DNA of 25,663 nucleotides, taken from IMG/VR virus record IMGVR_UViG_3300009506_000175, positions 1 through 25,663 of that record, one strand, 5' to 3'. The notes under the pieces were generated by a model. That model saw only the letters and a list, made by a program, of their open reading frames with translations. It searched no databases and was not told the DNA's origin. Origin of the DNA: a virus. This document shows, in pieces, positions 10,159-25,653 of the stretch. Positions within the stretch are counted from its first letter, which is position 1; every line of letters starts with the position of its first letter. Made by a program: the position numbers and the translations under genes.

Positions 10159-10190
10159 CAAAGATACAACATTTTTTTCGTTTTTCCAAA
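10159..10190 (-). promoter_or_regulatory. Bacteroidota-type promoter for the fibre operon
   Basis: On the minus strand a TTTG (10187-10190) is followed after exactly 20 nt by TATCTTTG (10159-10166), matching the Bacteroidota -33 TTTG and -7 TAnnTTTG consensus. The start codon of the 60-aa gene is 21 nt further on. It lies immediately behind the terminator hairpin at 10208-10246. Confidence 0.85.
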
Positions 10191-10196
10191 TTTTAA

Positions 10197-10246
10197 ACAA
10201 AAATAAAGGAGTCTCACTTCAAGATGTATACTCAAAATAAGACTCC
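10197..10246 (-). terminator. Rho-independent terminator after the capsid/connector operon
   Basis: On the minus strand a perfect 7-bp inverted repeat, GGAGTCT (10240-10246) and AGACTCC (10208-10214), encloses a 25-nt loop. It is followed directly by TTTATTTTTG. It sits 14 nt after the stop of the 85-aa membrane-protein gene and 6 nt before the -33 box of the next promoter. The large loop makes it weaker than a classic terminator, but the position is right. Confidence 0.65.
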
Positions 10247-10260
10247 AGTGTTAAGATCAT

Positions 10261-10518
10261 TTAATTTTTTCTAAATATTCCAGCCAAATTGTCCCAATTC
10301 GACTTCATAAATTTATAAAATTTATACCCATAACTAATTATGGTAAGAATTGCGACTATACCTGTTAACACTAAGGCTAAAACCTGTAGATCGTACAATA
10401 GTGCAATCTCTTTTTCCTTTAAAACCAACTCTGGTAATGTCCCAGCACCAGTCCCAGTTAGAGTGAGTATAAATCCTCTTGCTTTTTCGCTAAAGAAATT
10501 TAATACGTCCACTATCAT
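10261..10518 (-). CDS. Small one-helix membrane protein
   Basis: In this 85-aa protein, residues about 1-25 could be an amphipathic helix (VLNFFSEKARGFILTL). Residues about 43-63 are a clear transmembrane helix (LQVLALVLTGIVAILTIISYG), followed by a basic C-terminus (KFYKFMKSN, IFRKN) expected to stay in the cytoplasm. Size and topology would allow a holin or other lysis protein, but a single transmembrane helix is not diagnostic and no endolysin lies nearby. It is the last gene before the terminator and starts 11 nt after the 415-aa structural gene. Confidence 0.75.
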   Translation of the reverse strand: MIVDVLNFFSEKARGFILTLTGTGAGTLPELVLKEKEIALLYDLQVLALVLTGIVAILTIISYGYKFYKFMKSNWDNLAGIFRKN

Positions 10519-10529
10519 CTTACTAGGGG

Positions 10530-11777
10530 TTACGAGATACCAAATACAGTTTTAAGGTCAGTATGTACAGAAGAAGAAGATTCTGCTTCAGTGTAAATCA
10601 ACAGCGTAATGAAAGACAACACGTCAGCATCCACACTAGTTGCATTATCATTCACGAATGAGAGTGTTATAGCTTCATAAGTTTTACCAACTGTTGCATT
10701 TAAAGTACGACCACTTACTGGGTACTTAGCAACACGGAAGGTTTCCCCTCTGTTACCATTTAAGAACCATTCAGTTTCAGCAACGGAACGATAGGTACCA
10801 GTTCCTTTTGATGCTACAGCCAAATCAGTTACAGGAGTTGACCCAAAAGCTTCAGATAAAGAAACTTTAAAAGTTATTTTATCATAGCGGAACAACCCAG
10901 GTTCAAACTTACCAGGGGCGCTTTCAAAAAATAATCCCCAACTACCTGCAACAGCAGTAGCACTAGGAATAACTTCAAGATCTGCCGTAGCAGCTGCATA
11001 AGTCCCTGAGGCTTCTAATACAGGAGCATCCAAAGTAATTGTAGTAGAATTGATCGCAACAATTTTATATACGCTAGATGTTAAGGCAGTACCACCACCT
11101 ACTGATCCCATACGAACATAATCACCTACTACAGCAGTACCTGCACCTGTATTATACTGAAGATTAGTAGAAACAGTTACATTTTTACTACCATTTACTA
11201 CAGTAGCATCATTATCAAATGCATTAGCTGCAGTTACCGTAGAATCATTTAAACGACCAACTTTAGTTACTTCAACGCCTGACCTAGCTTTTTCAACTCC
11301 AAGGTTTTTAACAGCATTAGCTAACAAAGCATCTGCAATTTCAGTTTCAGTTGCAGAAGCGTCTGATTTATAAGCAGCAACCAATTTGTACAAATTGTGT
11401 TCCCCATAAGTTTTGGAGAAATCTTTACGGAAGAGATGGATGTAGTAATCTGAACTATTAGCGACTTCTATTGCTCCACTAGTACCATCAAACCCAATAA
11501 CGGTTTTCTGTTCTGTATCAGCAACATAATCATTAGCCGCTTTATTACGGATCAAACTATATTCGATCTCTGGAGATTCAATAATATTACCATCAACATT
11601 CATGAAGGTAACCTTAAAGGTATCACCAGCTACCAAAGCAGTAGTTTTACCTACATTTAAACCATTGGCGAATACACCAATCTTACCAGCTACTAAGTCC
11701 GCCCTAGATTCACCAGAAGTTACAAGGTCTAAATCTTTACCCACTACTAGCTGGGTAATATTCTTTTGATTAATCAT
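10530..11777 (-). CDS. Beta-rich virion structural protein, 415 aa
   Basis: The protein begins MINQKNITQLVVGKDLDLV. Its N-terminal 150 residues and C-terminal 130 residues look like parts of one fold. Residues about 165-275 (KNVTVSTNLQYN, VVGDYVRMG, VYKIVAINSTTITLD) form a self-contained beta domain, probably an exposed insertion. Arg codons are mostly CGT, as in the major capsid gene and unlike the fibre genes, which suggests high expression. Gene order (capsid, unknown, ring-like, this protein) points to an abundant virion component such as a tail-tube, head-decoration or muzzle-type subunit. I cannot choose between these. Confidence 0.75.
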   Translation of the reverse strand: MINQKNITQLVVGKDLDLVTSGESRADLVAGKIGVFANGLNVGKTTALVAGDTFKVTFMNVDGNIIESPEIEYSLIRNKAANDYVADTEQKTVIGFDGTSGAIEVANSSDYYIHLFRKDFSKTYGEHNLYKLVAAYKSDASATETEIADALLANAVKNLGVEKARSGVEVTKVGRLNDSTVTAANAFDNDATVVNGSKNVTVSTNLQYNTGAGTAVVGDYVRMGSVGGGTALTSSVYKIVAINSTTITLDAPVLEASGTYAAATADLEVIPSATAVAGSWGLFFESAPGKFEPGLFRYDKITFKVSLSEAFGSTPVTDLAVASKGTGTYRSVAETEWFLNGNRGETFRVAKYPVSGRTLNATVGKTYEAITLSFVNDNATSVDADVLSFITLLIYTEAESSSSVHTDLKTVFGIS

Positions 11778-11806
11778 TTTAAAAAAATTTTAATTAGACA
11801 ATATAC

Positions 11807-12529
11807 TTAATTTTCACGATCTTTCTGTTGAGAGACCGCAATTTGAATTTCATCAGGTTTAATTGAAGCCACTGCCATACTATATGCTTTATCTACTATT
11901 TCTGAATGAATAGAATCATCTAGTATACAATCAACTTGATTTCCTGTGTTTACAGAGTCTGCTACAATACTTGGTAAGGTACGTAAATATCTTACCCTGT
12001 AATTTAATATAGTAGAACCATCTGTAATAATTTCTGTTCTCTTTTCTCCTGTTGGAGTCTCCTTGCTAATATCCATCCTCCAAGCTACCCAATCATAAGG
12101 ATTCTGATAAGGATTATAAACATTTGCTATATATTGGTCATGAGTGATTGGTTGTACCGTTATCTCATTCCCTGTAGTAGCATTTATAACTACTGATTCT
12201 TCTATAGCATATTGAAAATCACTAGGCAAATCAAAGAAAACACCACTAGGATGTACCCCTGTTTGTGATGCTGATACAGTTATAGTACTTCCAGGAATAT
12301 CGGTAGAGTCATATTCTGCTGATTTAATCAGTTGTTCTAACTCTCTCCTTCTATCCTCAGAAGATTCAAATGCCTTCTTAACATTTCTCCCATACTTATT
12401 ACGAAATACATCCTGCTGGGCTTTAGTTAATAGAGTACTAATTTGTCTATCATCATAAGCAGGGGCACCCCATTCAATTAAGTTATCTAAAAGGAGCAAA
12501 AGCTCATAACGCATTTGATTAGCTGTCAT
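11807..12529 (-). CDS. Head-tail connector or tail ring-like protein
   Basis: This 240-aa protein has a helical N-terminus (MRYELLLLLDNLIEWG, then DDRQISTLLTKAQQDVF at about 26-42 and RRRELEQLIKSA at about 60-71). A beta domain follows (FFDLPSDFQYAIEE, then VQPITHDQYIANVYNPYQNPYDWVAWRMD at about 122-150) and a helical end. I associate the D-x-x-I-x-x-LLTKAQ segment followed by PITHDxY and NPY with ring or connector proteins of crAss-like phages; this is from memory. Its place after the capsid gene fits an adaptor under the portal. It is preceded by the 283-aa gene with a 2-nt gap. Confidence 0.75.
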   Translation of the reverse strand: MTANQMRYELLLLLDNLIEWGAPAYDDRQISTLLTKAQQDVFRNKYGRNVKKAFESSEDRRRELEQLIKSAEYDSTDIPGSTITVSASQTGVHPSGVFFDLPSDFQYAIEESVVINATTGNEITVQPITHDQYIANVYNPYQNPYDWVAWRMDISKETPTGEKRTEIITDGSTILNYRVRYLRTLPSIVADSVNTGNQVDCILDDSIHSEIVDKAYSMAVASIKPDEIQIAVSQQKDREN

Positions 12530-12531
12530 TC

Positions 12532-13383
12532 TTAATTACTTAACCTAGTTTCAATAATCTGTTTCATTTCTAGTACATCTGGATCTTTACTATCGAAGTA
12601 ATCTACAGCTTCTTCCAAATGTTTACCCAAGAATTTATTAAACTCTTTAACACGTAATCCTTCAGGTGTCCTAACTATATCACCATTATCAATGGCATCT
12701 AATACAAATAGTTTTAAAGTAGACTTAGGATCTTTCGATACTCTAATAAAATCTTGAATACCTACTTTTCCTCTAGCACTCTTTTCATCTATAATCTCTA
12801 GAACTTGTCCTTTTAACCACTCAAGAGAGGCATCTTTAGATGGTTTCTTATTGAGTAGTCGTAATGTGTTATATAAGTTCTTTTTACTCTTGTTAATCTT
12901 CATATAATACCCTAAAGCTTCCTCTTTTAAGAGAGCACTTTTTGATGCTTTTGCTTCTTGAACAGCTTCATCTTCTAAGTAGAAGTCACACTTAGGATGT
13001 TTCTTATCCTCTGGTGTGTTAGCAAACCTAGGGCTTACTAGAAATATTCTATAAAATAAAGCATCAGTTGGGTTATTTAAATTTAAAGTTGTTCCATCCT
13101 TTGTAAGTGCCATTGAAAATTCACCCCAAAACTTAGATGTGAAATTGTAAATATTTAATGCACCTCTTGGTTTATTTAACAACCTTTCAAATTCTTCTTG
13201 TTCATTATCATTAAAGAAAGGATTTACGAAACTTCGTACCTTACTATCATAAGGTAATCCATAATCTTTAAAACACCCAGTATAGGTGTGTTCTCCATCA
13301 TGTCCTTCTGGTAGGAACCCCCTGCGATGGATAGCAGGTTTTACTTTTATTCTTCTGTCCTCTAATACACTAGTCTCTATCAT
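12532..13383 (-). CDS. Conserved-looking virion-associated protein after the major capsid gene
   Basis: This 283-aa protein has a mixed fold. Visible blocks are FVNPFFNDNEQEEFERLLN (about 52-70), NIYNFTSKFWGEFSMAL (about 77-93), LNLNNPTDALFYRIFLVSPRFA (about 99-120) and a long charged helical C-terminal half. The NPFF...EQ...FE, FW.EF and LNL.NP.D.L.YRI layout suggests a conserved phage family, but I cannot name its function. It lies between the major capsid protein and the ring-like gene and starts 78 nt after the capsid stop, behind a GC-rich hairpin. A head-completion or capsid-associated role is inferred. Confidence 0.7.
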   Translation of the reverse strand: MIETSVLEDRRIKVKPAIHRRGFLPEGHDGEHTYTGCFKDYGLPYDSKVRSFVNPFFNDNEQEEFERLLNKPRGALNIYNFTSKFWGEFSMALTKDGTTLNLNNPTDALFYRIFLVSPRFANTPEDKKHPKCDFYLEDEAVQEAKASKSALLKEEALGYYMKINKSKKNLYNTLRLLNKKPSKDASLEWLKGQVLEIIDEKSARGKVGIQDFIRVSKDPKSTLKLFVLDAIDNGDIVRTPEGLRVKEFNKFLGKHLEEAVDYFDSKDPDVLEMKQIIETRLSN

Positions 13384-13405
13384 ATGCTTTTAATTTTAGA
13401 TGAGT

Positions 13406-13432: not shown

Positions 13433-13461
13433 TGTCATCAGTATTTACTTGTGAGCCAAAA

Positions 13462-14988
13462 TTATACAATATTGGGAATCCATTCACCCATACGAAGTGG
13501 GTTATGCACTTTGATACCTAACCAGTCTGCACGAGTTATTTCGTATCCATCAACCTTACTTGAGATTGATTTTGGACGACCATTACCTCCACCAGGAGTA
13601 TAAGGATCACGCAAACCTGATAAGTATGCAAATACTTCTTCCTGTCCTTTAATACGTACCAACTGGATATTAGGTTGACCAGCAGAAGTACCAAAGTCCA
13701 TAAGAGTTAAACGATAAGATTCAACAAGACCACCATCTGGGTGATATTTCTTGAATCGTACTGGGTCATCATACCACGGTATATGGATGAAGTTAAATTG
13801 AATACCATTGATGTCGATCACTTTATTGTACTGAGGACGATGATATGTAGCCCCTGAGCCACTTCCAACGCCATCAATCCTATTGTGTTCTAAACCAGTG
13901 GAACTTCCACTCTTGATTGCGAATGATCCTGCGTATTCTTCAACAGCACGAGAAACCATCTTCAATCCATGTTCACCTGTACCAATAACAAACTTACGAG
14001 AGTCTTCTGGCAATTTACCTACAGACAAGCTCAAAGCCCAGTCTACAAGTTTAGTAATTGAGAAGTTAGTGTAGTAGTGAATATTAGCTGGAGAAATCTG
14101 GTCACGAAGTCCCATACCAGCTTTGATTTCACCCCCTGCATCTCCTAAGTTACCATAAGTACCATCAGCCCTCCGATTTGATTTACCAAAGAAAAGCAAT
14201 TTAGCTTTTTCTCTACGGAAGAATTTATCAAATTCCCAATCCAAACGGTTCAACCAAGTATTAAACTTAGTCACCATACCATTTTTGTTAGCAATCTGCC
14301 AATCAAAAACGACTGGGTTATTCCTTCCTTTTAAAATCATTTCACCAGGAACAGTAGTTTCCTTACGGATCATACTAATACGGTTAGCAAGTCTGAATGG
14401 AGAAGTATAACTAATATCAGAACCTTTCTTACTCATGAATTGTTCTGATAAAGAGTAGTCTGCACTCCACAGAGTACCAGAGGCTAATTCTTCATAAGGT
14501 ATGTACAACTCAGGATCAGTGGTTACTAATTCAGTTTTGTATTTCCACAATCCATCTTCTTGGATACCGTCATCACGTACCAACAAATGGTAAAGATCTG
14601 GTTCTTCACCTACAATAACGTGAGTTTGGAAGAATAACCTTTCTGAGAAGTACATGTAAACAGGTTGTCCATATTGACCTGCAGTAGAAGCAGCAGTGAA
14701 GCTGTTTCCAGCCGCATCCAATGCTTTCTCCAAAGGAAGATTCTTAGCATCAGCGCCCATAAGCATCCATTGGTACTCAACATCATCTGGTAAGTACAGA
14801 ATAGGATATTTATTCAATTCGCTAATGAGATCATCCTGGAGGTTTACCTTATACAAAGTATCAATAAAATCTGTTACAGTGAATGGTTGTTCTCCAAATA
14901 AAGCTCCTAAATTATTGGAAGATGTTAAACCTGACCAATCCTTCGCATCATAAACGATACGAGGGAAAGCAGCAGTATTTAAAGCCAT
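13462..14988 (-). CDS. Major capsid protein (crAss-like, HK97-fold candidate)
   Basis: The 508-aa length matches major capsid proteins of crAss-like phages. The N-terminal region (about 25-65) is followed by a YMYFSERLFFQTHVIVGEEPDLYHLLVRDDG segment at about 111-141, whose layout I associate with these capsids. Loop- and strand-rich sequence follows, with a C-terminal FNFIHIPWYDDPVRFKKYHPDGG block. It comes directly after the scaffold-like gene and before virion genes, the classic head-gene order. Of eight Arg codons checked at the 3' end, seven are CGT, while fibre genes use mainly AGA, consistent with codon adaptation for the most abundant protein. No Shine-Dalgarno precedes the ATG; the leader is nearly all A and T. 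Confidence 0.88.
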   Translation of the reverse strand: MALNTAAFPRIVYDAKDWSGLTSSNNLGALFGEQPFTVTDFIDTLYKVNLQDDLISELNKYPILYLPDDVEYQWMLMGADAKNLPLEKALDAAGNSFTAASTAGQYGQPVYMYFSERLFFQTHVIVGEEPDLYHLLVRDDGIQEDGLWKYKTELVTTDPELYIPYEELASGTLWSADYSLSEQFMSKKGSDISYTSPFRLANRISMIRKETTVPGEMILKGRNNPVVFDWQIANKNGMVTKFNTWLNRLDWEFDKFFRREKAKLLFFGKSNRRADGTYGNLGDAGGEIKAGMGLRDQISPANIHYYTNFSITKLVDWALSLSVGKLPEDSRKFVIGTGEHGLKMVSRAVEEYAGSFAIKSGSSTGLEHNRIDGVGSGSGATYHRPQYNKVIDINGIQFNFIHIPWYDDPVRFKKYHPDGGLVESYRLTLMDFGTSAGQPNIQLVRIKGQEEVFAYLSGLRDPYTPGGGNGRPKSISSKVDGYEITRADWLGIKVHNPLRMGEWIPNIV

Positions 14989-15012
14989 AATCTATATATA
15001 TTAAAAATTAAG

Positions 15013-16167
15013 TTACAAATTTACTCTTCGCATAGCATCTAGGTAAGAGTTAGTTTCTGCAGCAGATATTGGGGATTGTCGTCTAGGAACTTGCTGTTCC
15101 ATATTAAGCTTCTTAGTAGCTTCCTCAAAGTCTTTAATTGCACTCTTTTTACCAGTTGAGGATAGTACATCCCATTTGGTAAAGCCATTTGTAATTTCAA
15201 ACAAATAAGCTAATTTAATTTCAAATCCAATTGGATCTGACTCTCTAGCCTTCGCTATGTTATTTAAAGGTTGTCCATATTCATTTACATCTACTACAGT
15301 AGTAATATTCTTGTAAACTTTGTCTTTTACAGCATTATTAACTGGTACTCCAGGAATAATCTCTCTAGTATCCCTTAAAGTATTTTGAAAGTTCTGAATT
15401 ATTTCAAGTTGCTGTTGTCTATAAGCTTCTTCTTCAGCTTGTGCTTCCTGCTGTATTTGAGTTTCCTGCTGGGCAATCAATGTTTTTAATTCAGTTAAAG
15501 CACCTTTACTTTCATCTTCCAGTTCTCCTAACTGAGACAACCTTTCTATTTCTTTATCAATTTTAGAATCTGAGAACTTAGTACTGCGTTTATAGTACTC
15601 CCTAGTAATGCTTTTCTGTAAATCTTCATTGTCAATCAATGATTCTTCACTCATATCATTATACTGGGTTTTTGCTCTATCAATCTTGAGTAGGTCTTCC
15701 AGAGGAATACCCATCTCCATATTGTTTTGTAACCATTTTACACGAGGATCTAAACCATTTTTATAATCTTCAATCCCAGCGTAAATTTCATTCTGAAGCC
15801 TTTGTGTTTGGGCATTCAATAATGATTCTGCAGTACCATCAAATTTCTCAAGATCTAACTCAGGAAGGATACCCTCTGCTACTAGCATTTTAGCATATGG
15901 AGTGAGAAGAGAAGAAGTGTCATCAGTATCTTGAGCAGAGGGCTCCTGTCCTTCATTTTCTTGTGTTGTTTGACCTTCTAAATTACCCTCATTGGGGTCT
16001 TCATCACTTGTTTGTTCTATATGCTTATTAATATCTTCTTCAGGAACCTCAGGTTCCTCTTGTGGTTCGTCGAATTGTTCTGGGTTTAATTTATCTTCCC
16101 CAAACATTCCTGCCATTCTATCTAATGAGCTTAAATCAACTCCAAAATCAAAGTCTCTCTCTTCCAT
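15013..16167 (-). CDS. Scaffold-like protein
   Basis: This 384-aa protein is strongly acidic over residues about 25-85 (runs of Glu, Asp and Gln). A LTPYAKMLVAEGILPELDLEKFDG block follows (about 88-111). Long helices and a Gln/Glu-rich coiled coil come next (about 215-260, TLIAQQETQIQQEAQAEEEAYRQQQ split across heptads), with a basic C-terminus (PRRQ, AMRRVNL). Acidity, coiled coil, basic tail and position immediately before the capsid gene are the usual marks of a prohead scaffold that leaves or is degraded on maturation. It is the first gene behind the promoter at 16178. Confidence 0.75.
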   Translation of the reverse strand: MEERDFDFGVDLSSLDRMAGMFGEDKLNPEQFDEPQEEPEVPEEDINKHIEQTSDEDPNEGNLEGQTTQENEGQEPSAQDTDDTSSLLTPYAKMLVAEGILPELDLEKFDGTAESLLNAQTQRLQNEIYAGIEDYKNGLDPRVKWLQNNMEMGIPLEDLLKIDRAKTQYNDMSEESLIDNEDLQKSITREYYKRSTKFSDSKIDKEIERLSQLGELEDESKGALTELKTLIAQQETQIQQEAQAEEEAYRQQQLEIIQNFQNTLRDTREIIPGVPVNNAVKDKVYKNITTVVDVNEYGQPLNNIAKARESDPIGFEIKLAYLFEITNGFTKWDVLSSTGKKSAIKDFEEATKKLNMEQQVPRRQSPISAAETNSYLDAMRRVNL

Positions 16168-16177
16168 ACTTTTTGTG

Positions 16178-16209
16178 CAAATATAATTAATTCAAATTCT
16201 AATACCAAA
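16178..16209 (-). promoter_or_regulatory. Bacteroidota-type promoter for the scaffold/capsid operon
   Basis: Minus-strand TTTG (16206-16209), 20 nt, then TATATTTG (16178-16185). Only 10 nt separate the -7 box from the ATG of the scaffold gene at 16167, so the mRNA should have a leader of only a few nucleotides. Confidence 0.85.
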
Positions 16210-16242
16210 TTTTAGACAATATATTTTTTCCTATTATAAACA

Positions 16243-17184
16243 TTATCGTGCCAATGACACTCCTAAATGTATTTTTTGTTCTTTTCCAAAGACAGATTTT
16301 CTACCTCTAGTATAAGCACCACATTCACATTTAACGATAGGAAATTGACTAGTTTGAGTATAATAAAACTTATCTGGTACTTCTTTAACATGAACACTAC
16401 CACATGCGGAACATACTGGTTCATCTGCTTCTAAGAACATAGCCAGATTAGGATGTGATTTAATCCAAGGTCTTAGTTTTAAATATACCTCTTCTAGTAA
16501 TATTACATCTTGATCATTATACTCACTCATATAAGCTAATGCTTTCTCATCACCAGCTTTACAAGCTTTCCATAAATCAAAGTCTGTATCTTTCTTACTA
16601 CCTAATTTAAAGAATTCTCCTAAACCATTCAAACTATTATGGGTAAATCCAAATTGTTTAGCAGCAATCTTCTTAGTATCTATCTGTTGATAGGGAGACG
16701 TAGGTGGTAAATCATTTATAATAAACCTTGTATTAACATTAGGTACATCAAATTTATCACCATTATGTGCAATTACAATATCAGCATCATCCAATAATTT
16801 CCATAAAGAAGTAACAATACGTTTGTCATTCTCTGAACGAGCTTCTTTACCTGTTAATCTATCTGATAATACTTTTGTATCATATAACCACTTAGCAGAC
16901 CATGATAACATAAACCATTCTGAGATTACTCTATCTGCATAGATATTAGCTCTCCATACTTCTTTTTGAAATACATAAGCCTCTAGAGGGCTAGTTTCAA
17001 TATCAAAGACAAGTACTTTTGGAAATTTCTGTTTATACTTCTTGTTTAACTCTTTACGAGCTATAGATCGTGCTTTTGTTATATCTTCTTCATCACAATG
17101 CCAATTCTTGGCCAATTTACCCTTCCCCATTCTCATTCTTGTTGGATTCTCCAAGAATTTCTGTACTACTTTTTCTAAGTTCAT
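16243..17184 (-). CDS. DnaQ-like 3'-5' exonuclease with HTH-like N-terminus and C-terminal zinc ribbon
   Basis: This 313-aa protein carries the three Exo motifs of the RNase H-like exonuclease fold. ExoI is VFDIET with D61 and E63. ExoII is IAHNGDKFD with N141 and D146. ExoIII is YNDQD with Y222 and D226. All carboxylates of a DEDDy-type nuclease are present, so it should cleave DNA or RNA from the 3' end with two metal ions. Residues about 5-45 look like a helix-turn-helix module (KLAKNWHCDEEDI). C258, C261, C286 and C288 form a CxxC...CxC zinc-binding site. It is a stand-alone exonuclease with no polymerase domain. Lying between portal and scaffold genes, it is probably expressed with the head genes. 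Confidence 0.88.
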   Translation of the reverse strand: MNLEKVVQKFLENPTRMRMGKGKLAKNWHCDEEDITKARSIARKELNKKYKQKFPKVLVFDIETSPLEAYVFQKEVWRANIYADRVISEWFMLSWSAKWLYDTKVLSDRLTGKEARSENDKRIVTSLWKLLDDADIVIAHNGDKFDVPNVNTRFIINDLPPTSPYQQIDTKKIAAKQFGFTHNSLNGLGEFFKLGSKKDTDFDLWKACKAGDEKALAYMSEYNDQDVILLEEVYLKLRPWIKSHPNLAMFLEADEPVCSACGSVHVKEVPDKFYYTQTSQFPIVKCECGAYTRGRKSVFGKEQKIHLGVSLAR

Positions 17185-17332: not shown

Positions 17333-19699
17333 TTATACTTTTGATTTTGATCGTCTAGAAATTCCTTCAGCTGCTCTATTATGTCTTTCACGTTCTCTTA
17401 AATCACGTTCTTTTAGAGTAGCGTCAGAATTCTGTTTTGTTTCTTGTAAATTTAACTTACGATTATCTAAATCTAACTTCATAAAGTCTGCTGTATGATC
17501 TTCAGGTAATTCTTCTTTTTCATCATTATCCTTCATACCAGCAATTTGTAACTTAGTTTGATTGTCAGTGTCTATTCTATAGTATTCTAAATCTCTATCA
17601 GCTTGCTTATCTTGCAATTGAGCCTGTTGCATACGTTCATTAGCTTCAGATGTTTCTTTATTCATCTGTTCTTCTCGTTGTAATTTCTCCTGCTCTGCAG
17701 TTTCAATCTTACGAGCCATATCTGTAATACTATCTGAGCGTAATATAGTAATAGGTAATGTAAGTGAAGCCCCATTCTGTACAGCAGCTTGAGCTAACTG
17801 TTTCAGAGATTGTCTGATTTCAAGATCATCACTACTATTAGTAATAAACAGATCATACTCAGTTGAAGCAAAATCCTCACCATTAAAGTCAATCATTTGC
17901 CTAGACATATCATCGAGTATGAATCCTAACTTTTTAGATTTAGAATTTTTCCAGATTTGCTTGGCAGTATCCAATAAAGCCAATAATACACGTTTCTTGG
18001 TTTCATCATGTACGAAGAACCATTTCTCAGTAGTATGAGAAGATTGTGTTACTGCTCTTTCTACACCACCTACAGTTTCTCTGTTATCTACTTGCCCTTC
18101 ACGCTGAGCTGTAACTCCAGCGATCTGTCCCATTTGAGTTTCTATATACTGTAACATTAGTACTAATTGCTGAATATAGTTACCAACATCAGCATCTAAT
18201 ACCTTACCAGTTGTATTCATATGACCTGATAGTACACCAGTAGCTGTACCTTTCTTACCCTCATTAAAGGGATCTACAACAGCCCAACCAAGTACCTCAG
18301 CATAATACATCCATTGTTCAACGTCCCATTCTTCTGGTTTTTTAGTTATATCTAATTCATATATAGGCCCCTTGTATTTAGCTATTGCTAACTCTAAGCG
18401 GCGCATATATACGTTATAAAGGTACTGATATGATTCCATACGACCCATTAAGGATTTACCGTAATCAGTACCAACATATCCTAAGAAGCATTTACTAGGG
18501 TTATCAAAGTGACGCATTTGTACATCACGAGGCCCAAACTTAATATACTTATCATCAGCAATTCTATGCCCTTCATAAGCCTCATTTACCCAAATCCACT
18601 TAACTGTTTCCCCTAATTCTTCATTGACTTTATACCTTTCTGATACTAAACGTTCTTCTTGGTCACCAGTCATCTCATCAAAATAAGTTAATACCCCTAG
18701 TCTCCTACGTCCTTTCCATCTTACACGAACTACACGAACATTACCCTCATAGTCATAGGGTAAGTTATAGACACTATTTGTGACTACTAAATCTTCCATA
18801 GACTGCCCATCCCCACCTATCTGTCCAGATGAGTATAGTCTAGGAAATGTGTTCTTATGCTGAAGGATTCCTGCGCTTGATGAACCTCTAAGGCTTTCAT
18901 ATCCCTTTTCGATGTCATCAATTTCAGATGGGGTGAGATAGTCATAGAATTCATCTATGACTTTACCAATGGGTTCATACCCAATTTCAACAATAATATC
19001 TGCATCTTCAATGCGATGTGAGTTACCTTTACGAATAGTATAAACATATTTAGGGTCTGTTTTAACTACAAAAGGTTCTCCACCCACATTATCAACTCTA
19101 TATATTTCAACACCTTTAACTAAAGCGTCACGAAAACCTGATGAGAACTTCTCCTTTAAATCCTGTTGCCTCCATAGGTTTTGTAAGACTCTAGTTGCGG
19201 CCAATTCATTAAGATCCTTAAATTCATATTTAAAATATTTAGAGATTTCTTGAATTCGTTGTTCTATTTGCTGTTGGTCTGGGGTCTCTTGCTGTATATG
19301 TGTTATAGCAGCTTGGATGATTTCATCTCTTAAATTCTTCGAATAGTTTGAATAAGCATCTTCATTCTTAGCCATTACACTCCAATCGAATCGTCTTTTC
19401 AATTCTTCCCCCTGTAACAAGTCTAATTTAGGTACAGATAGGGGATAATTCTTAATTGAAGCTGGAAATGAAGATTGAGTTAACTGCATAGGGTTAAATA
19501 CCTTTTCAATTTCTCCTTCATTTATAATATCGTTATCTAGATCTTCCCAGATAAACATCTTCCTATGTTGCTCAGCAGTACTATCTGCACGCAATACTGC
19601 TAACATCTCAGCAGAATCCACACATTGTTTGTACCACTCTCTATTCTTTTTACCTGTAGGAATTTTTTGCCTAGGAAAAAATAGTGGATGTTCTCTCAT
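17333..19699 (-). CDS. Portal protein (crAss-like)
   Basis: At 788 aa this is long for portals in general but typical of crAss-like phages. Near the N-terminus are REWYKQCVD (about 20-28) and YPLSVPKLDLLQGEE (about 85-99), a block I associate with these portals. The core has RVVRVRWKGRRRLG (about 322-334) and a long helix at about 505-535, followed by GVTAQREGQVDNRETVGGVE (about 538-557) and QSSHTTEKWFFVHDE, the usual portal stem and wing region. Residues about 675-788 are a charged coiled-coil tail rich in Glu, Gln and Arg. It forms the dodecameric DNA gate that binds terminase. It has its own promoter, and its gene follows the terminase gene as in most tailed phages. Confidence 0.9.
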   Translation of the reverse strand: MREHPLFFPRQKIPTGKKNREWYKQCVDSAEMLAVLRADSTAEQHRKMFIWEDLDNDIINEGEIEKVFNPMQLTQSSFPASIKNYPLSVPKLDLLQGEELKRRFDWSVMAKNEDAYSNYSKNLRDEIIQAAITHIQQETPDQQQIEQRIQEISKYFKYEFKDLNELAATRVLQNLWRQQDLKEKFSSGFRDALVKGVEIYRVDNVGGEPFVVKTDPKYVYTIRKGNSHRIEDADIIVEIGYEPIGKVIDEFYDYLTPSEIDDIEKGYESLRGSSSAGILQHKNTFPRLYSSGQIGGDGQSMEDLVVTNSVYNLPYDYEGNVRVVRVRWKGRRRLGVLTYFDEMTGDQEERLVSERYKVNEELGETVKWIWVNEAYEGHRIADDKYIKFGPRDVQMRHFDNPSKCFLGYVGTDYGKSLMGRMESYQYLYNVYMRRLELAIAKYKGPIYELDITKKPEEWDVEQWMYYAEVLGWAVVDPFNEGKKGTATGVLSGHMNTTGKVLDADVGNYIQQLVLMLQYIETQMGQIAGVTAQREGQVDNRETVGGVERAVTQSSHTTEKWFFVHDETKKRVLLALLDTAKQIWKNSKSKKLGFILDDMSRQMIDFNGEDFASTEYDLFITNSSDDLEIRQSLKQLAQAAVQNGASLTLPITILRSDSITDMARKIETAEQEKLQREEQMNKETSEANERMQQAQLQDKQADRDLEYYRIDTDNQTKLQIAGMKDNDEKEELPEDHTADFMKLDLDNRKLNLQETKQNSDATLKERDLRERERHNRAAEGISRRSKSKV

Positions 19700-19714: not shown

Positions 19715-19746
19715 CAAATATAATATTTTTACCAAAAAAATGCAAA
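19715..19746 (-). promoter_or_regulatory. Bacteroidota-type promoter for the portal operon
   Basis: Minus-strand TTTG (19743-19746), 20 nt, then TATATTTG (19715-19722). The portal ATG is 15 nt further on. The -33 box begins directly after the terminase stop codon. Confidence 0.85.
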
Positions 19747-21945
19747 TTATAACATAGGAAATTTCACTCTATTATAAACATTATCCATTTTAGGCTTCTT
19801 ATAAGCTCTATTCCAAAATGCATCTCCTGCAGTTGTTTGTATAGATTTAGTTCTATTTGTTTTAATAATATTAGTTATTTCCTCTCTATATATCATTAAG
19901 ACAATTAAAGCAGAAATTCTGTCAGCATTTATCTCTAAACTAAATGACAACATTTCTTTGAGTAGAGCAACAGACCTAATTTTATCTAAGTTTATCTTAG
20001 AAGGATCATCATATGCTGGTTTTTCAATCCACATTTTAATCAATTCTATACCAAATACTTTAACTGATACAGTACTTACACTTACTCCTAACGCTCTATT
20101 ACCTATCCCTGTCTGCTTTATTAATCCTATATCTTTAAGGATTTTAGGTGACTCAGCTAGTAAGTGTAAAGAGTTTTTAACTTTAAAGTGACCATATAAT
20201 CCTTTCTTATTATTTTCATATAATAATCTAGCATTATAGTAGTAAATCAACTTCCTTACGTTTTCATAGTATTCTTCTGCTAAGTATGTTCTAGCAGTAT
20301 ATTCTGCAACAATTCTATCAGTCCAAGTATCTAGTATAAAAGTAGATTGGAGAGACCTAGTAATATCTTGATTACCATCATCATCTACAGGGTCAGTAGC
20401 ACCAATATATCTATTTCCATATACTATACCTGATGAATTTGTTTTAGGTTTTTCAAATATTGATACACAAGCATCCATTGTATGGCCCTTACGCAGTGGA
20501 TACTCATTAATAGGTAACTTATCAGAAGGGTTAATATCAACTAATCCTTCTTTCTCCATTACCAAATCTGCGTGGTATATAGCCTTCATGAGGATACGAT
20601 TCCTCTCTAAATTAGCTAGAGCCTCTTTTACCTTATGTACTGGGAAGAATACCCCTTCTTTTCTTAAGAAAATATCAGATGGTACTCTTGGATTATTAAT
20701 AATATAGGATAAATAAGTGTTAGTATTATTAGAAGCCTTAGCTTCTGCTAACTCTTCTTCTAACATTCTAACAGCTAAATCCATATCTGTTATATAATCA
20801 TCTCCTTTCTTAAATGCATTTCTAGTTAAATCAGCTGGTACAAAGAAACCTAATGTCCCTTTCTTCTCCCAAGTATCCTCAAATGCTACACAATTGTAAG
20901 CTTCTGGATTATAGAATATATCTTGGGCATATACAGCAGCTCCAGCAGTTGTTAAACCACCAGTTCCTAGCCCATATATAACCAATCTCTTATGTTCTGC
21001 AGCTGTTTGAGTATTAGTAATAGCACCCCATGATTCCACAAGGTTATTCATAAACCCTACTTCTTCTAGGAATACTCTATTTGGACGAGTACCATTAGCT
21101 GCCAATGGATTATCTTTAAATGATACATGCTTTAAGACAGATAGATTAGATGAAGTAATAACTTTACCTGGCATCATAGAGCCTGTATAAGGCTTAAACA
21201 ATGGTGCTGGATGTACTTCATGATCTCCATATTTATTTATAATCTCTGATCTACCTGGATAATGTTCAAATGCTAACCTTACTTTAGTTAATAAGTCAGT
21301 ACTATAACCTGCTTCAATAGCCCCTACAACCGTATCAGAGGTGTAGGGCTTCCCTGATCTAAATTTTGCTAGATATTTATCGTAGTCTCTGGCTCCATCA
21401 AATATAAAGTTATGAGCAATCATTCCTGATGCCCAATATGACTTACCGCCTCCACGACCTTCCAAGTCCATGATATTCTTTGCAGAATTAGCATAAATAG
21501 GTTTTCCTAGGTCACCTGGATGTATTCTACGTAAATATTCTCTAGCTGGTACATAAATTTTAGATTTAACTTCTTTCTCTGTAATCCAACCATACTTTAT
21601 AGCCCTTTCTTTCTCTGGGCCATACCATCTATGGCAAGTTTGCAGTTCATCACCCTCAAAACCACTGAATCCAGTGGCCTCAGCATATATATATGCTTTC
21701 TCCCATTCTAAATCTCTTAACCAAGGAAGCCCAATAGCAACAGCCTTTCCGCCTTCATCCTCAAATTTTATATTATGAAAGTTAATATAATAGTATAATT
21801 CAGGTGGCATCCATTTACCACCTATCCAATACCCTTCAATACAGCGTTTTTTCTGTTCTCTCCACCACTCTAATCTTTCATATCTTTGAGCAATTGGGTG
21901 AAAGTCTGGTACTTCTCCTATCTTAAATAAGGCATTATTTATCAT
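19747..21945 (-). CDS. terL: Terminase large subunit
   Basis: I start it at the ATG at 21945, giving 732 aa; a TTG at 21957 would add four residues. The N-terminal domain has WWREQKKRCIEGYWIGG (about 27-43) and PPELYYYINF. The ATPase has a Walker A GRGGGKS (163-169), a Walker B VFLEEVG (291-297) with the catalytic Glu, and a motif III-like VIYGLGTGG (about 332-340). The nuclease domain has an Asp in GATDPVDDD (about D518), a YNARLLYEN stretch and an Asp in NADRISAL (about D685). It packages DNA into proheads through the portal and cuts concatemers. It overlaps the 87-aa gene by 11 nt and is the last gene of the first operon. Confidence 0.93.
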   Translation of the reverse strand: MINNALFKIGEVPDFHPIAQRYERLEWWREQKKRCIEGYWIGGKWMPPELYYYINFHNIKFEDEGGKAVAIGLPWLRDLEWEKAYIYAEATGFSGFEGDELQTCHRWYGPEKERAIKYGWITEKEVKSKIYVPAREYLRRIHPGDLGKPIYANSAKNIMDLEGRGGGKSYWASGMIAHNFIFDGARDYDKYLAKFRSGKPYTSDTVVGAIEAGYSTDLLTKVRLAFEHYPGRSEIINKYGDHEVHPAPLFKPYTGSMMPGKVITSSNLSVLKHVSFKDNPLAANGTRPNRVFLEEVGFMNNLVESWGAITNTQTAAEHKRLVIYGLGTGGLTTAGAAVYAQDIFYNPEAYNCVAFEDTWEKKGTLGFFVPADLTRNAFKKGDDYITDMDLAVRMLEEELAEAKASNNTNTYLSYIINNPRVPSDIFLRKEGVFFPVHKVKEALANLERNRILMKAIYHADLVMEKEGLVDINPSDKLPINEYPLRKGHTMDACVSIFEKPKTNSSGIVYGNRYIGATDPVDDDGNQDITRSLQSTFILDTWTDRIVAEYTARTYLAEEYYENVRKLIYYYNARLLYENNKKGLYGHFKVKNSLHLLAESPKILKDIGLIKQTGIGNRALGVSVSTVSVKVFGIELIKMWIEKPAYDDPSKINLDKIRSVALLKEMLSFSLEINADRISALIVLMIYREEITNIIKTNRTKSIQTTAGDAFWNRAYKKPKMDNVYNRVKFPML

Positions 21946-22198
21946 TAAAACGTTCAATTAGTTCTACGAACTCTATAAAAGGCATAAATACCATATGTCC
22001 GTAGCCATCAGCTAGTATCAAGTTAACATTTCCACCACTATCTTCATTAAAACAAACAATTTGACTAGGGTTTACATATAGTATCCCCTCATATGAATAA
22101 TCATCTCTGTCAAATGGGACACTTAATCCCTCTAAGTCAGACATCTTATTTGCCTGTTCTTCCGTTATAAACCTAACTGGTAATTCTAAAAATTTCAT
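21935..22198 (-). CDS. Small hypothetical protein, 87 aa
   Basis: The product is a compact mixed protein with a beta segment (YEGILYVNPSQIVCFNED, VNLILADGYGHMVFM) and a C-terminal helix (IEFVELIERF). The pattern (N-P-S-Q-I-V, then a short strand and L-x-D-G) is reminiscent of small SH3-like or FlbD-like beta domains, but I recognise no family with confidence. It is coupled to the RusA-like gene by a TAATG overlap and runs 11 nt into the terminase gene. Confidence 0.75.
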   Translation of the reverse strand: MKFLELPVRFITEEQANKMSDLEGLSVPFDRDDYSYEGILYVNPSQIVCFNEDSGGNVNLILADGYGHMVFMPFIEFVELIERFNDK

Positions 22199-22632
22199 TA
22201 TGATTTATTTAGTATTCGTAAATAGACTCCTGGTTTTTCTTTATCATATGAATAGGCTTTTCCATCTATCCACAGACATTCTGGTACTATATAATCCATG
22301 TTATCATCCTCAATTATATCAAAAGCTACTAGTAGATCGAGTATAATCTGAGTAACATTATTAAAATCAAACTTGTGCTTAGTACCTCGCACAAAGTGAA
22401 ATCCCAATCTAACTGGGAAATCATACCCTTTAAACATCCATTTTAATTCTTCTACAGGAAATGTTAAAGGAAATGTCTTATATAAAGTAACTTCTTTTCT
22501 ACTACTTGAAAACGACAATATACCATGAGCCCTAAGAAACTTTACAACAGTCCTCGAATGTATCATATTTCCCCGTGAAGTCCTTTGCTTAGAGTTCTTA
22601 GAGCTAGGTATATTGTGTTCTATGAAAACCAT
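22198..22632 (-). CDS. RusA-like Holliday junction resolvase, variant active site
   Basis: This 144-aa protein has the RusA layout: an N-terminal PSSKNSKQ substrate loop (9-16), a central beta region, then F-D89-F-N91-N92 followed by IILDLLVAFDIIEDD (D99, D109, D110). In classical RusA the site is D-x-D-N-x-x-K. Here the second Asp is Asn91 and the Lys position is Gln95. I recall similar D-x-x-N-x-x-Q forms in phages of Bacteroidota, so this is probably a functional subfamily and not decay. RusA enzymes cut four-way junctions, here likely clearing branched replication DNA before packaging. It lies two genes ahead of terminase and shares TAATG junctions with both neighbours. Confidence 0.8.
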   Translation of the reverse strand: MVFIEHNIPSSKNSKQRTSRGNMIHSRTVVKFLRAHGILSFSSSRKEVTLYKTFPLTFPVEELKWMFKGYDFPVRLGFHFVRGTKHKFDFNNVTQIILDLLVAFDIIEDDNMDYIVPECLWIDGKAYSYDKEKPGVYLRILNKS

Positions 22633-22928
22633 TATACTTTTCTTTTATTATAATGATAGTTGTAAAACATTGCATTACATTGAATATGCCCCATGTGGTG
22701 TATACCACTTTCTTTATCAAATTCTTCACCATCCATGAGAGCAGCTAAATGTCTCTGCATAGATTCTAATACTTCTTTAAGATCTAATCCTATTTTCCAG
22801 TTATCTCTAGAATACTTATTAGCACCAAACTCAAGTACTCTAATCATAGGAATCATGGACTCATAATGCATTAGAGACCATCTAGGTTTACCTTCGTTCT
22901 CTCTTATAGACTTTTCACTTTGTTCCAT
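22632..22928 (-). CDS. dATP/dGTP diphosphohydrolase-like protein (MazZ/DUF5664 type)
   Basis: The 98-aa all-helical protein has the run of motifs I associate with this phage family: GKPRWSL (13-19), VLEFGANKYSRDNW (31-44; E33, K38, Y39, N43, W44), a MQRHLAAL helix (57-64), and GEEFDKESGIHHMGH (67-81) with E68, D71, E73, H77 and H81 as likely metal and phosphate ligands. Members hydrolyse dATP or dGTP to the monophosphate and are best known as MazZ in phages with 2-aminoadenine genomes. The length matches a single domain. It overlaps the deoxyribosyltransferase-like gene by 25 nt, suggesting a joint role in shaping the nucleotide pool. No purZ-like gene is in this window. Confidence 0.8.
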   Translation of the reverse strand: MEQSEKSIRENEGKPRWSLMHYESMIPMIRVLEFGANKYSRDNWKIGLDLKEVLESMQRHLAALMDGEEFDKESGIHHMGHIQCNAMFYNYHYNKRKV

Positions 22929-23278
22929 TTTACTAGATCTTTTAGTGAGTAGAAAATAGGAATACCTAATTTTGTTGCTTGCTCTAACTCAATTAGTACA
23001 CCAACTGAATCTTCCCAATCTTTTAACCCAGGAGTATTAGGTACTACCAATACTGCGTCAGATGCTCTTAACCAAGCCATACTGTACTCATAGAACTCAG
23101 GAACTGTATATTTCTTATCCCAGTTACTAAATATAAACTCTTTGTCAAACCAAGGTACAAAAGGTGCCATTCCAGCTTCAAATACCTTTCTACCATACTC
23201 CTGTCCTCTTCCAATGTTCTTCAATACGCCTAATACATTAGTATCTGAATAGGCTCCTGCTACATAAACTTTCTTCAT
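22904..23278 (-). CDS. Nucleoside 2-deoxyribosyltransferase-like protein
   Basis: This 124-aa Rossmann-like protein begins KKVYVAGAYS (nucleotide-binding strand and loop, 2-11). It continues with an EAGMAPFVPW block (34-43), a strand ASDAVLVVP (72-80) after an active-site-type helix, and DSVGVLIELEQATKLGIPIFYS (90-111) with E97 or E99 in the place of the catalytic Glu. This is the layout of the nucleoside 2-deoxyribosyltransferase / DUF4406 superfamily, whose members move a deoxyribose between bases or hydrolyse dNMPs. Phages use them in nucleotide salvage or pool remodelling. It directly precedes and overlaps the dATP/dGTP diphosphohydrolase-like gene. The substrate cannot be read from sequence. 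Confidence 0.8.
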   Translation of the reverse strand: MKKVYVAGAYSDTNVLGVLKNIGRGQEYGRKVFEAGMAPFVPWFDKEFIFSNWDKKYTVPEFYEYSMAWLRASDAVLVVPNTPGLKDWEDSVGVLIELEQATKLGIPIFYSLKDLVKWNKVKSL

Positions 23279-23356
23279 TTACTTCTTCCATTTTAATTCT
23301 TCATAATCAACTTCATAATCCATCCAAGTGATTGGTTTAGATTTCTCCAGTTTCAC
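23279..23356 (-). CDS. Possible 25-aa mini-gene with GTG start
   Basis: A GTG at 23356 opens VKLEKSKPITWMDYEVDYEELKWKK, here split as VKLEKSKPITWM and DYEVDYEELKWKK, with the stop one base before the next ATG. It fills the only 58-nt hole in this operon and overlaps the 194-aa gene by 20 nt. At this length coding cannot be told from chance. Confidence 0.25.
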   Translation of the reverse strand: MKLEKSKPITWMDYEVDYEELKWKK

Positions 23357-23921
23357 TTGGAGATAAGGGTTTGTTCCCTTTGCCTCGCTTAATTTCCTCT
23401 TCTGATAGAGCTTTTTTAATTTTCTCATACTCTGCATACATTTTAGGGGTTACTGCATATGCTTTATCTAATTGTTCTGCAGTTCCCTTAACTACAACTA
23501 ATGCCCCAGTTCTACTGTAAACATTGTCTCCATTCTCATCCACTTTGTATTGATCAAAGTAGTAATCCATACCTTTGAGGTATTTATCCCTCTTTCGCAT
23601 ATAATTGTCCCAGTTAACTAAAGATCGCTCCGCTTGAGTGAGTATAGCAGCTGAGAATAGTGATATTTCCTCCTCTACTGTAGCCCAATCAAAGTTTTTA
23701 TCTTTTATATAATTCTCTATAATTAACTCCTCCTTATTAGGTAAATGATATAAATCTGACCTAGGATGTACTAAGAAGTAGATTCCCCACATAATTTTAG
23801 AGGATTTGTTATGATTCTTAGTTTTATCCTTCTTATAGAAGTCTTCAAACATTACTATATACTCAGAATTCCATTCCCAGAAATTCTCTACACCTTTAAA
23901 TACATCAGGTACCTTAATCAT
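23337..23921 (-). CDS. Hypothetical protein, 194 aa, upstream of packaging genes
   Basis: The protein is charged and mostly helical, with many aromatics in the first half (FWEWNSEYIVMFEDFYKKD; IMWGIYFLVHPRSDLY at about 44-59; NYIKDKNFDWATVEEEI at about 70-86). A YMRKRDKYLKGMDYYFDQY helix follows, and the C-terminus is polar and basic. Its position before the terminase makes it a possible small terminase subunit or packaging factor, but it has no clear helix-turn-helix, so I give no function. It overlaps the 81-aa gene by 8 nt. Confidence 0.75.
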   Translation of the reverse strand: MIKVPDVFKGVENFWEWNSEYIVMFEDFYKKDKTKNHNKSSKIMWGIYFLVHPRSDLYHLPNKEELIIENYIKDKNFDWATVEEEISLFSAAILTQAERSLVNWDNYMRKRDKYLKGMDYYFDQYKVDENGDNVYSRTGALVVVKGTAEQLDKAYAVTPKMYAEYEKIKKALSEEEIKRGKGNKPLSPSETGEI

Positions 23922-24159
23922 TTTCTTCCTCCTTATTCTTCTTTATATGCTTAAGAATGTTCTTACTGGCATAAAAGGTGCCAAAATAGCGTAAATATAT
24001 ATTTTCAAAAGATTCTATAGTATCTATCCCTTTGGCTATGTTATCCCTTACAAATCTCCACTGAAAAGCCTCTATATCCTTTACTAATTCCTCAGGAATA
24101 CCATACTTCTCAGCAATCCTTTTATACTCCTTAACTAATCTCTTCTGGGTTATCCTCAT
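23914..24159 (-). CDS. Small basic helical protein, 81 aa
   Basis: The product is basic and helical (RLVKEYKRIAEKYGIPEELVKDIEAF), with an ENIYLRYFGTFYAS segment (about 52-65) and a Lys-rich end. I associate the IYLRYFGTFY pattern with a small conserved protein of crAss-like phages; the function is unknown. It overlaps the 49-aa gene and the 194-aa gene and is part of the same transcript. Nucleic-acid binding is possible from its charge. Confidence 0.7.
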   Translation of the reverse strand: MRITQKRLVKEYKRIAEKYGIPEELVKDIEAFQWRFVRDNIAKGIDTIESFENIYLRYFGTFYASKNILKHIKKNKEEEND

Positions 24160-24280
24160 TTAAATACTTTAAAATTGACTTACGGGTAAAAATTAACTCC
24201 TTAATGTCTCCATCCTCACCTAAGACTACTAGGTAGTATTTAGGGTTTTCAATAGGATAATCATCGCCATCTATCAACAT
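24131..24280 (-). CDS. Small hypothetical protein, 49 aa
   Basis: The ATG at 24280 lies one base after the stop of the helix-turn-helix gene, and the frame ends 29 nt inside the 81-aa gene. It fills an otherwise empty 122-nt gap. The product begins MLIDGDDYPIENPKYYLVVL and continues as a short beta and helix protein (GDIKELIFTRKSILKYL). It is a plausible small folded protein of unknown function. Confidence 0.65.
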   Translation of the reverse strand: MLIDGDDYPIENPKYYLVVLGEDGDIKELIFTRKSILKYLNEDNPEEIS

Positions 24281-24281
24281 A

Positions 24282-24656
24282 TCAATCTATTTTAAATATT
24301 ACTGAAAATGTATAGCTGGGGCCAGGAGAAATATCCAGAAAGGCTGGTAACCTGTTATCTTTTCCTAAGACTTTATGCTTACGGAGTATAGATAAGTTAT
24401 TATTAAACGTTTCCTCTGAAATCCCCAGACTATTACACATATCTCTTCTGTTTTCTGTAGAGAACACCAAGACAGATCTTAGATCTTTCACTGAATCTTT
24501 CATTCTAAAACTATCAAAATTCTTCATAATTTCAGCTAATACATCCAATTCTCTAGGTCTAAGCTGATTTAAAGGCTTAAAGTTAGCCATCAAATCAAGT
24601 AACTGTCTGAAGAAATTAATCTTCGTTGTTCTCACTGGTATCTGCATCGTCGTCAT
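24282..24656 (-). CDS. Helix-turn-helix DNA-binding protein
   Basis: This 124-aa protein has LRPRELDVLAEIM at 32-44, a typical first helix of a winged or LuxR-like HTH, then NRRDMCNSLGISEETFNNNLSILRKHKVL (69-97), a clear helix-turn-helix with the recognition helix around NNNLSILRK. It could regulate phage transcription, or serve as the small terminase subunit, which also binds DNA through an HTH and is otherwise missing here. The start is either 24656 or the ATG at 24647; both overlap the upstream gene (41 or 32 nt). I recall similar proteins near terminase genes of Bacteroidota phages. Confidence 0.75.
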   Translation of the reverse strand: MTTMQIPVRTTKINFFRQLLDLMANFKPLNQLRPRELDVLAEIMKNFDSFRMKDSVKDLRSVLVFSTENRRDMCNSLGISEETFNNNLSILRKHKVLGKDNRLPAFLDISPGPSYTFSVIFKID

Positions 24657-24906
24657 ATTTTAAATTCTTATCTAGTAAATGCCAGAATTTAGGTAATGCA
24701 GTCTTAGGATTTTCAAATTCTGATACTTTTGCATTTGCAACCAGTGGACTCTTATTCACCAATACAAACTTCAAAGAATCTCCATCTACTCCCATATACC
24801 TAACTCTTGTGCCATCTTCTGTAATATAAGTCTTACCTACATCATAGAACTCAGCTACTACTAGATTCCCAGAATTATCTTCATAAATATTCTCAAAATT
24901 CAACAT
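24616..24906 (-). CDS. Small acidic hypothetical protein, 96 aa
   Basis: The first 55 residues form a beta-rich region (NLVVAEFYDVGKTYITEDGTRVRYMGV, broken here as GNLVVAEF and TRVRYMGVDGDSLKFVLVN), followed by FENPKTALPKFWHLL and an acidic tail rich in Asp and Glu. No family is recognised. It is coupled to the GroES-like gene by a TAATG overlap, and its acidic tail is encoded where it overlaps the helix-turn-helix gene. Confidence 0.7.
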   Translation of the reverse strand: MLNFENIYEDNSGNLVVAEFYDVGKTYITEDGTRVRYMGVDGDSLKFVLVNKSPLVANAKVSEFENPKTALPKFWHLLDKNLKYDDDADTSENNED

Positions 24907-25241
24907 TATCCAATTAATTTTACTTTATTAACCTTTTTCAACTTCTCATCATAATTATCAGGTGATACAGCTAGAGCTACAGCATTTCTGTAAATCAATC
25001 CTATTCTCTGCTCATTAACCTTAAAACTATTTACTCCACCAATTATTTCAAAAATAATATCACCAGGCTGTAAATCTTCAATCTTATTACCTACTGCAAG
25101 AATTGTGATCTTTTCTGCAATAGATTCAGTTTCCACATCATCTGGGAGTATAATATCAGAGTTTCTTTTCTTTTCTTCAATCTCTACTAAGATACCATCT
25201 CCTCTCAAAATAACCTTACTTAAATCTTTAATTCGTTCCAT
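24906..25241 (-). CDS. GroES-like co-chaperonin
   Basis: The 111-aa protein has the GroES layout: an N-terminal strand with LRGDGILVEIEE (12-23), a shortened mobile loop holding DIILPDD (29-35) whose Ile-Ile-Leu stands where GroES has the Ile-Val-Leu that contacts GroEL, an ILAVGNK strand (47-53), QPGDIIFE (58-65), and a C-terminal IGLIYRNAVALAV (80-92) like the last strands of Cpn10. It should form a heptameric lid for host GroEL and help fold phage proteins, as T4 gp31 does for its capsid protein. No GroEL gene is present. It overlaps the 64-aa gene by 14 nt. Confidence 0.82.
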   Translation of the reverse strand: MERIKDLSKVILRGDGILVEIEEKKRNSDIILPDDVETESIAEKITILAVGNKIEDLQPGDIIFEIIGGVNSFKVNEQRIGLIYRNAVALAVSPDNYDEKLKKVNKVKLIG

Positions 25242-25422
25242 ACTTACTTTTTGCGTTTACTTCAATTACTAAATTCTCTTTGTCCTCAACAACTTCATAC
25301 GTTCTACCTTCCTTATTATACTTCCAAGTTTCCAACATACTCATAAAAGTGTTTAAAACTTCTTCATACTTAGAAGGTGAATCAACTTTTACTTTAAATC
25401 CCACGTTAATCTTTTTTTTCAT
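25228..25422 (-). CDS. Small hypothetical protein, 64 aa
   Basis: The product has a beta-alpha-beta pattern (INVGFKVKVDSP, then EEVLNTFMSMLETWKY, then TYEVVEDKENLVIEVNAK) that could be a small ferredoxin-like fold. No function is recognised. It overlaps both neighbours by 14-17 nt within the first operon. Confidence 0.7.
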   Translation of the reverse strand: MKKKINVGFKVKVDSPSKYEEVLNTFMSMLETWKYNKEGRTYEVVEDKENLVIEVNAKSKYGTN

Positions 25423-25606
25423 CTTTTATATAAGGTGTAGTTCCACTATAGAAAATACTCCCTTTCTTCCTTCGTCTCAAATACTGCGTAACTGCTTTAC
25501 GCTTCAATCTAAATTCTTCGAAATCCATACCCTCAGGTCTTTCTCCTCTTATCAATTTGGAGATTTCCTCAGCAGTAGGTTTCTTGTTTAATTCTTCTTC
25601 CTCCAT
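25406..25606 (-). CDS. Small basic hypothetical protein, first gene of the operon, 66 aa
   Basis: The acidic start (MEEEELNKKPTAEEISKLI) is followed by a very basic helix (EFRLKRKAVTQYLRRRKKG at about 31-49) and a polar end. The basic helix suggests nucleic-acid binding, but no family is recognised. Its ATG lies 15 nt downstream of the -7 box at 25622. Confidence 0.7.
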   Translation of the reverse strand: MEEEELNKKPTAEEISKLIRGERPEGMDFEEFRLKRKAVTQYLRRRKKGSIFYSGTTPYIKDEKKD

Positions 25607-25621
25607 ATATTGTTATTTTTA

Positions 25622-25653
25622 CAAATATAATACATTTTTTTCCAATTTCCAAA
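25622..25653 (-). promoter_or_regulatory. Bacteroidota-type promoter for the packaging operon
   Basis: Minus-strand TTTG (25650-25653), 20 nt, then TATATTTG (25622-25629), followed by an A/T-rich start and the ATG at 25606. The layout is the same as at the other three intergenic sites. Confidence 0.85.

Follow-up and report, generated by a model that had tools for sequence, protein, structure and literature searches.

The crAss-like phages (Crassvirales) belong to the most common human gut viruses, and the timing of their late genes has not been explained at the DNA level. In crAss001 and phi14:2, transcription of the late genes is attributed to the host RNA polymerase in two publications (PMC10136315, PMC8375218), and the literature already takes this view of crAss-like phages. 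Bacteroidota promoters of the sigma-ABfr type, such as those of Flavobacterium johnsoniae, consist of a TTTG box at -33 and a TAnnTTTG box at -7, the former being weak in F. johnsoniae (PMC6847099). Late promoters of this kind look like efficient host promoters, for which immediate firing would be expected. The late promoters of P2 (Ogr), Mu (C) and phi29 (p4) combine a host-sigma core with a conserved site located a constant distance upstream. The activator-dependent late promoter of Mu C is also described in PMC4461284. The present analysis concerns the virus record IMGVR_UViG_3300009506_000175 of IMG/VR, analysed over its full 25,663 bases (the window), the minus strand of which carries crAss-like phage genes for packaging, the head and other structural parts, and four promoter sites lying between those genes. 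Two of these, upstream of the portal and head genes, are accompanied by a second, lineage-specific element, which is what is new here and offers a testable explanation of late timing; neither such an element nor a promoter map for crAss-like phages was found in the searchable literature. For crAss001 and phi14:2, which have the gene order and late module of the window, host transcription of the late genes is attributed in publications, whereas here the boxes, their spacing and the upstream element are defined from sequence.

All four sites read TTTG, exactly 20 nucleotides (N20) and then TAnnTTTG on the minus strand (Table 1). The -7 box is TATATTTG in three sites and TATCTTTG in the fourth, as an earlier sequence-only reading of the window had claimed for the same coordinates. 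They are the sole matches to TTTG-N20-TAnnTTTG in the window, against a mean of 0.22 in 100 dinucleotide shuffles, none of which contained four. Each is intergenic and precedes a gene on the same strand, intergenic DNA making up 4.3% of the window, which corresponds to a probability of about 2e-7 under random box placement. The comparison with gene interiors and shuffled DNA, named by the earlier reading as a refuting test, left the proposal standing. The TAnnTTTG box by itself is not enriched (39 against 30.7 expected), the signal being the pair of boxes at one spacing: across spacers of 8–35, spacer 20 gave the four minus-strand matches and every other spacer two or fewer on either strand. 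In addition, the -33 box is extended, reading AAAATTTG, which the earlier reading overlooked. A scan for Escherichia coli-type promoters was uninformative (59 sites, below the shuffle mean of 67). Judged by sequence, position, statistical excess, conservation and a geometry matching that of host-phylum chromosomes, the four sites are very probably host-type promoters, read by the host RNA polymerase with the Bacteroidota primary sigma factor (sigma-ABfr type), each lying 10–21 nucleotides ahead of the gene that opens the packaging, portal, head or tail set.

The rigid spacing noticed earlier is confirmed, and for the most part it follows the rule of the host. In a host sample of 1.33 Mb around the primary sigma gene from 80 Bacteroidota species, intergenic pairs of TTTG and TAnnTTTG peak at spacers of 19 (37 pairs) and 20 (40 pairs), other spacers giving 1–16. 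The phage sites are tighter than this, using spacer 20 alone. In the window clade, spacer 20 outnumbers spacer 19 by 11:0, the host sample giving 26:22 (p 0.004, orthologous sites not being independent), with p 0.13 for the window's four sites alone. The late-type sites of gut Steigviridae, which mostly have NTTG at -33 where the window phage has TTTG, are likewise locked at 20 (24:3 for sites with TTG at -33, against 40:36 in the host, p 0.001). Furthermore, the distance from the -7 box to the ATG has a median of 19 nucleotides in the phage versus 37 in the host (p 8e-5). If the sites are active, with starts 4–5 nucleotides after the -7 box (PMC6847099), they would give predicted leaders of about 5–17 nucleotides, very short and also overlooked by the earlier reading. 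In whole genomes, N20 sites number 313 against 11 for a reversed control pattern in a Bacteroidales genome (G010) and 86 against 8 in Alistipes (G012), with no excess in Cryomorpha (G001; 41 against 42). Because these counts differ by group and the -33 box of F. johnsoniae is weak, a strict -33 box with N20 is a normal form for Bacteroidales, which hints at a host from this order, not from the Flavobacteria, for this uncultured phage. Relative to F. johnsoniae, the phage sites share both boxes and a spacing within the host range, and differ in the strict -33 box, the single spacer and the nearness to the ATG.

Conservation was assessed in 65 related viral contigs, the close group being those with portal proteins 48–66% identical. 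In this group, the spacer 20 pattern matches 10 times in the sense direction and never in antisense. All eight close relatives that cover the head junction (L001, L003, L004, L005, L006, L007, L011 and L062) have an exact head-operon promoter; about five of them are independent, because some form near-identical pairs. When this junction is aligned, the columns without variation are mostly those of TAA-GT-TATA, AAAATTTG and TA..TTTG, most of the surrounding DNA having diverged. At the portal and tail junctions most relatives retain the -7 box, exactly or with one mismatch, with a -33 box ranging from exact to lost. The form of promoter 4 recurs in L062 and, with one mismatch, in L006, and a site of the same form in L008 precedes the homologue of window gene 24616-24906, comparable to promoter 1.

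The second element was sought genome by genome, as a block at equal distance from the -7 box in the portal promoter and the head promoter, with 2000 shuffles each. Seven genomes (five of the window clade, phi14:2 and cr108_1) have such a lineage-specific block, the score of which was reached by none of the 2000 shuffles in any of them. The shared block is GATAATGTTTATAATAG in the window (17/17), CTAATGTTTATAGAAATT in L001 (18/18), TAAAGTTTATAA in L006 (12/12) and TAAACGCTATTAAAA in phi14:2 (15/15), with identities of 14/16 in L003 and 14/15 in L005, and Pipoluvirus cr108_1 carries an imperfect block of 40 nucleotides. When all pairs of 21 gene starts were tested in the window, the portal/head pair scored 17 and the next pair 10.5; in phi14:2, a 13-mer occurs exactly twice in 100 kilobases (kb), at the portal and head promoters. 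Relative to the predicted start, the element spans about -68 to -55, and its distance is kept at the L001 portal junction though the -33 box is lost. A match lies one helical turn closer (46) at the L001 tail and L010 portal junctions, and the phi14:2 core GCTATT stands at 68. In a sister marine clade, AAAGCTATAGnnCTATAG is found mostly 56–59 nucleotides, in two cases 68–69, before that clade's own -7-like box, TAATATTG. A block shared by crAss001 and cr116_1, CAGTAAATTTAGTA, was rejected as an element, as it overlaps TerL coding sequence or a stop codon and its loose pattern matched often.

The pattern of offsets suggests a protein that would contact RNA polymerase from one constant side of the helix. 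The likeliest reading, put at just under an even chance, is that a phage-coded activator would bind the portal and head element and contact the host polymerase. Such binding would account for a near-perfect host promoter being late. As in the P2 Ogr, Mu C and p4 systems, a host-sigma core is joined by a conserved site whose distance upstream is fixed, here at the portal and head promoters only; unlike in those systems, the host boxes are near-perfect and the activator is a candidate only. The element is not known to be related in sequence to the Ogr, C and p4 sites.

A substantial possibility, if a somewhat less favoured one, is that the promoters are of host type and the element is left over from duplication of a promoter cassette, acts as a distal A/T-rich UP-like element, or reflects overlapping coding and stop-codon sequence. 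Cassette duplication could explain part of the offset pattern, and two copies overlap coding sequence. One copy lies within TerL in both the window and L001. The element is A/T-rich, is missing at some promoters and, in several genomes, directly adjoins the stop codon upstream of it (TAA|AG...). However, the DNA between element and boxes has diverged where the element has not, and in L062 and L001 the element also precedes the tail promoter, away from a stop codon. The offsets cluster at 46, 56–59 and 68–69, about one helical turn apart, and the element differs between lineages yet matches within a genome.

If activator binding is the correct reading, the candidate protein would be one coded in the first unit, a 124-residue helix-turn-helix (HTH)-like protein (Table 1). 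Its family is present in 34 of the phage sequences searched, the window included; where annotated, the orthologs lie a few genes upstream of TerL (in cr116_1 at the far end of the record), several being annotated as VpsT-like regulators. The predicted structure is confident (predicted local distance difference test, pLDDT, 90.7), and many of its best fold matches in a Foldseek search of the PDB are HTH regulators, all weak and none significant; a sequence search for relatives of solved structure gave no match. Position, conservation and weak HTH likeness make it a proposal only. A more general scheme, in which a conserved activator, perhaps of this VpsT-like gp13 family, switches on the capsid genes of crAss-like phages through a lineage-specific element about 60 base pairs (bp) upstream, on a fixed face of the helix at host-sigma promoters, is rather unlikely. 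The promoter map, the second element and the candidate regulator together make the early-to-late switch testable in the cultured phages phi14:2, crAss001 and DAC15.

Several observations weigh against host-type promoters with an activator-bound element. Several of the homologous portal and tail junctions have a degenerate -33 box or have lost it. A TTTG-N20 peak is lacking in the sister marine clade, which has a different sequence at the head junction, so that the TTTG-N20 form is not universal among crAss-like phages; in this clade a portal/head block at equal offset was not found, its element standing at the head junction only. In the window the element is absent at the tail promoter, and the DNA upstream of promoter 1, which lies 10 nucleotides from the contig end, is beyond the record. 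The window, a 25.7-kb contig, covers part of this genome, the promoters seen in it being those of late genes.

That the sites are promoters of the phage virion RNA polymerase, or of a host-mimicking phage sigma factor, is improbable. All crAss-like phages code for a virion RNA polymerase, a role in late transcription has been proposed for gp49/gp50 of crAss001 (PMC8375218), and the head element of the sister clade departs from the host consensus. Nevertheless, the sites have the same boxes and spacing as host chromosomes, the phi14:2 upstream 13-mer occurs at two late promoters only, and the window genes scanned gave no match to a sigma-factor family, with one sub-threshold match resembling region 4. 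In phi14:2, moreover, the virion polymerase has been tied to rifampicin-resistant early, not late, transcription (PMC10136315). Chance matches in A/T-rich intergenic DNA have a negligible probability: although A+T makes up about 65% of the region and the -7 box by itself does not exceed chance frequency, the pair excess, sharp spacer peak and sense bias oppose this explanation, and conservation at homologous junctions has already refuted it in practice.

The four sites had also been taken to divide the late genes into four units, which holds in part. A strong terminator-like hairpin stands directly upstream of promoter 4, and hairpins of different sequence occupy the same place in L001, L006 and L062, so that terminator and promoter separate head from tail genes. 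No strong hairpin was found before the portal or head promoter in the window (promoter 1 being at the contig end), and transcripts from upstream therefore probably read through them. These two look like internal promoters or boosters, and the transcripts are probably nested, rather than forming four separate blocks, since the tail promoter alone is insulated by a hairpin. In L008 (100-192), and before the portal gene in cr116_1 (L068), a promoter overlaps a terminator hairpin, with the -33 box in the hairpin and the T tail in the spacer.

Table 1. Promoters, upstream elements and genes of the window
Feature	Position	Strand	Remarks
Promoter 1	25622..25653	-	TTTG-N20-TATATTTG; 15 nt before ATG of 66-aa gene 25406-25606; heads small-gene/TerL unit
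Promoter 2	19715..19746	-	TTTG-N20-TATATTTG; 15 nt before portal gene
Promoter 3	16178..16209	-	AAAA-TTTG-N20-TATATTTG; 10 nt before 384-aa head gene, then capsid protein
Promoter 4	10159..10190	-	TTTG-N20-TATCTTTG; 21 nt before 60-aa gene 9955-10137; heads following (probably tail) genes
Upstream element	19769..19785	-	GATAATGTTTATAATAG; starts 63 nt before promoter 2 -7 box; inside TerL 3' end
Upstream element	16231..16247	-	GATAATGTTTATAATAG; starts 62 nt before promoter 3 -7 box
Terminator-like hairpin	10208..10246	-	Stem of 16 bp with T-rich tail; immediately precedes promoter 4
HTH-like gene, 124 aa, candidate late activator	24282..24656	-	"VpsT-like regulator"; ortholog of crAss001 gp13, cr116_1 gp001, phi14:2 g098
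81-aa gene	23914..24159	-	Ortholog of crAss001 gp14 (annotated HU), phi14:2 g097
TerL (large terminase subunit)	19747..21957	-	PHROG 6681
Portal protein	17333..19699	-	PHROG 6547
DNA-polymerase-type exonuclease gene	16243-17184	-	
384-aa head gene	15013..16167	-	Just upstream of capsid gene; homologous to phi14:2 g092, crAss001 gp31
Major capsid protein	13462..14988	-	PHROG 11589

The window is the packaging, head and tail module of a crAss-like phage, whose TerL, portal and major capsid genes are homologous to, and ordered as, those of crAss-like phages. The gene order of phi14:2 equals that of the window save for the exonuclease gene placed between portal and head, an arrangement found in the window clade; in phi14:2 the portal gene leads directly to the head gene, in cr108_1 a gene for a DNA-polymerase-type exonuclease is located further downstream, and in crAss001 other genes are inserted between portal and head. 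The first unit also contains MazG-, RusA- and deoxyribosyltransferase-like genes. A search of phage records for near DNA relatives gave a single match, of 56 bp in the portal gene, to cr116_1.

In front of the 384-aa head gene, the sister clade (L013-L064) has a very conserved TATAAAAATAATTTTAATATTGTAAC in place of TTTG-N20 (e.g. L018 12440-12505). Across 771 kb, TTTTAATATTG has 51 sense and no antisense occurrences, and in the loci inspected nearly all of them fall at the head junction. The 384-aa gene and the gene after capsid each have a short leader, GACAGCAAA, immediately ahead of their ATG (L018 15307, L033 12486 and 15293, and similar sister-clade loci), with 81 sense against 18 antisense matches. 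A conserved G+C-rich hairpin with a T tail, either a terminator or an attenuator, follows the capsid gene in nearly every locus of this clade (e.g. L033 15225-15300). Among gut crAss-like phages, TTTG-N20-TAnnTTTG also precedes tRNA genes and an early TROVE gene (crAss001 L070:1625-1656 and L071:48318-48349; cr116_1 L069:1350-1381 and 3768-3799), and the form is therefore not limited to late genes.

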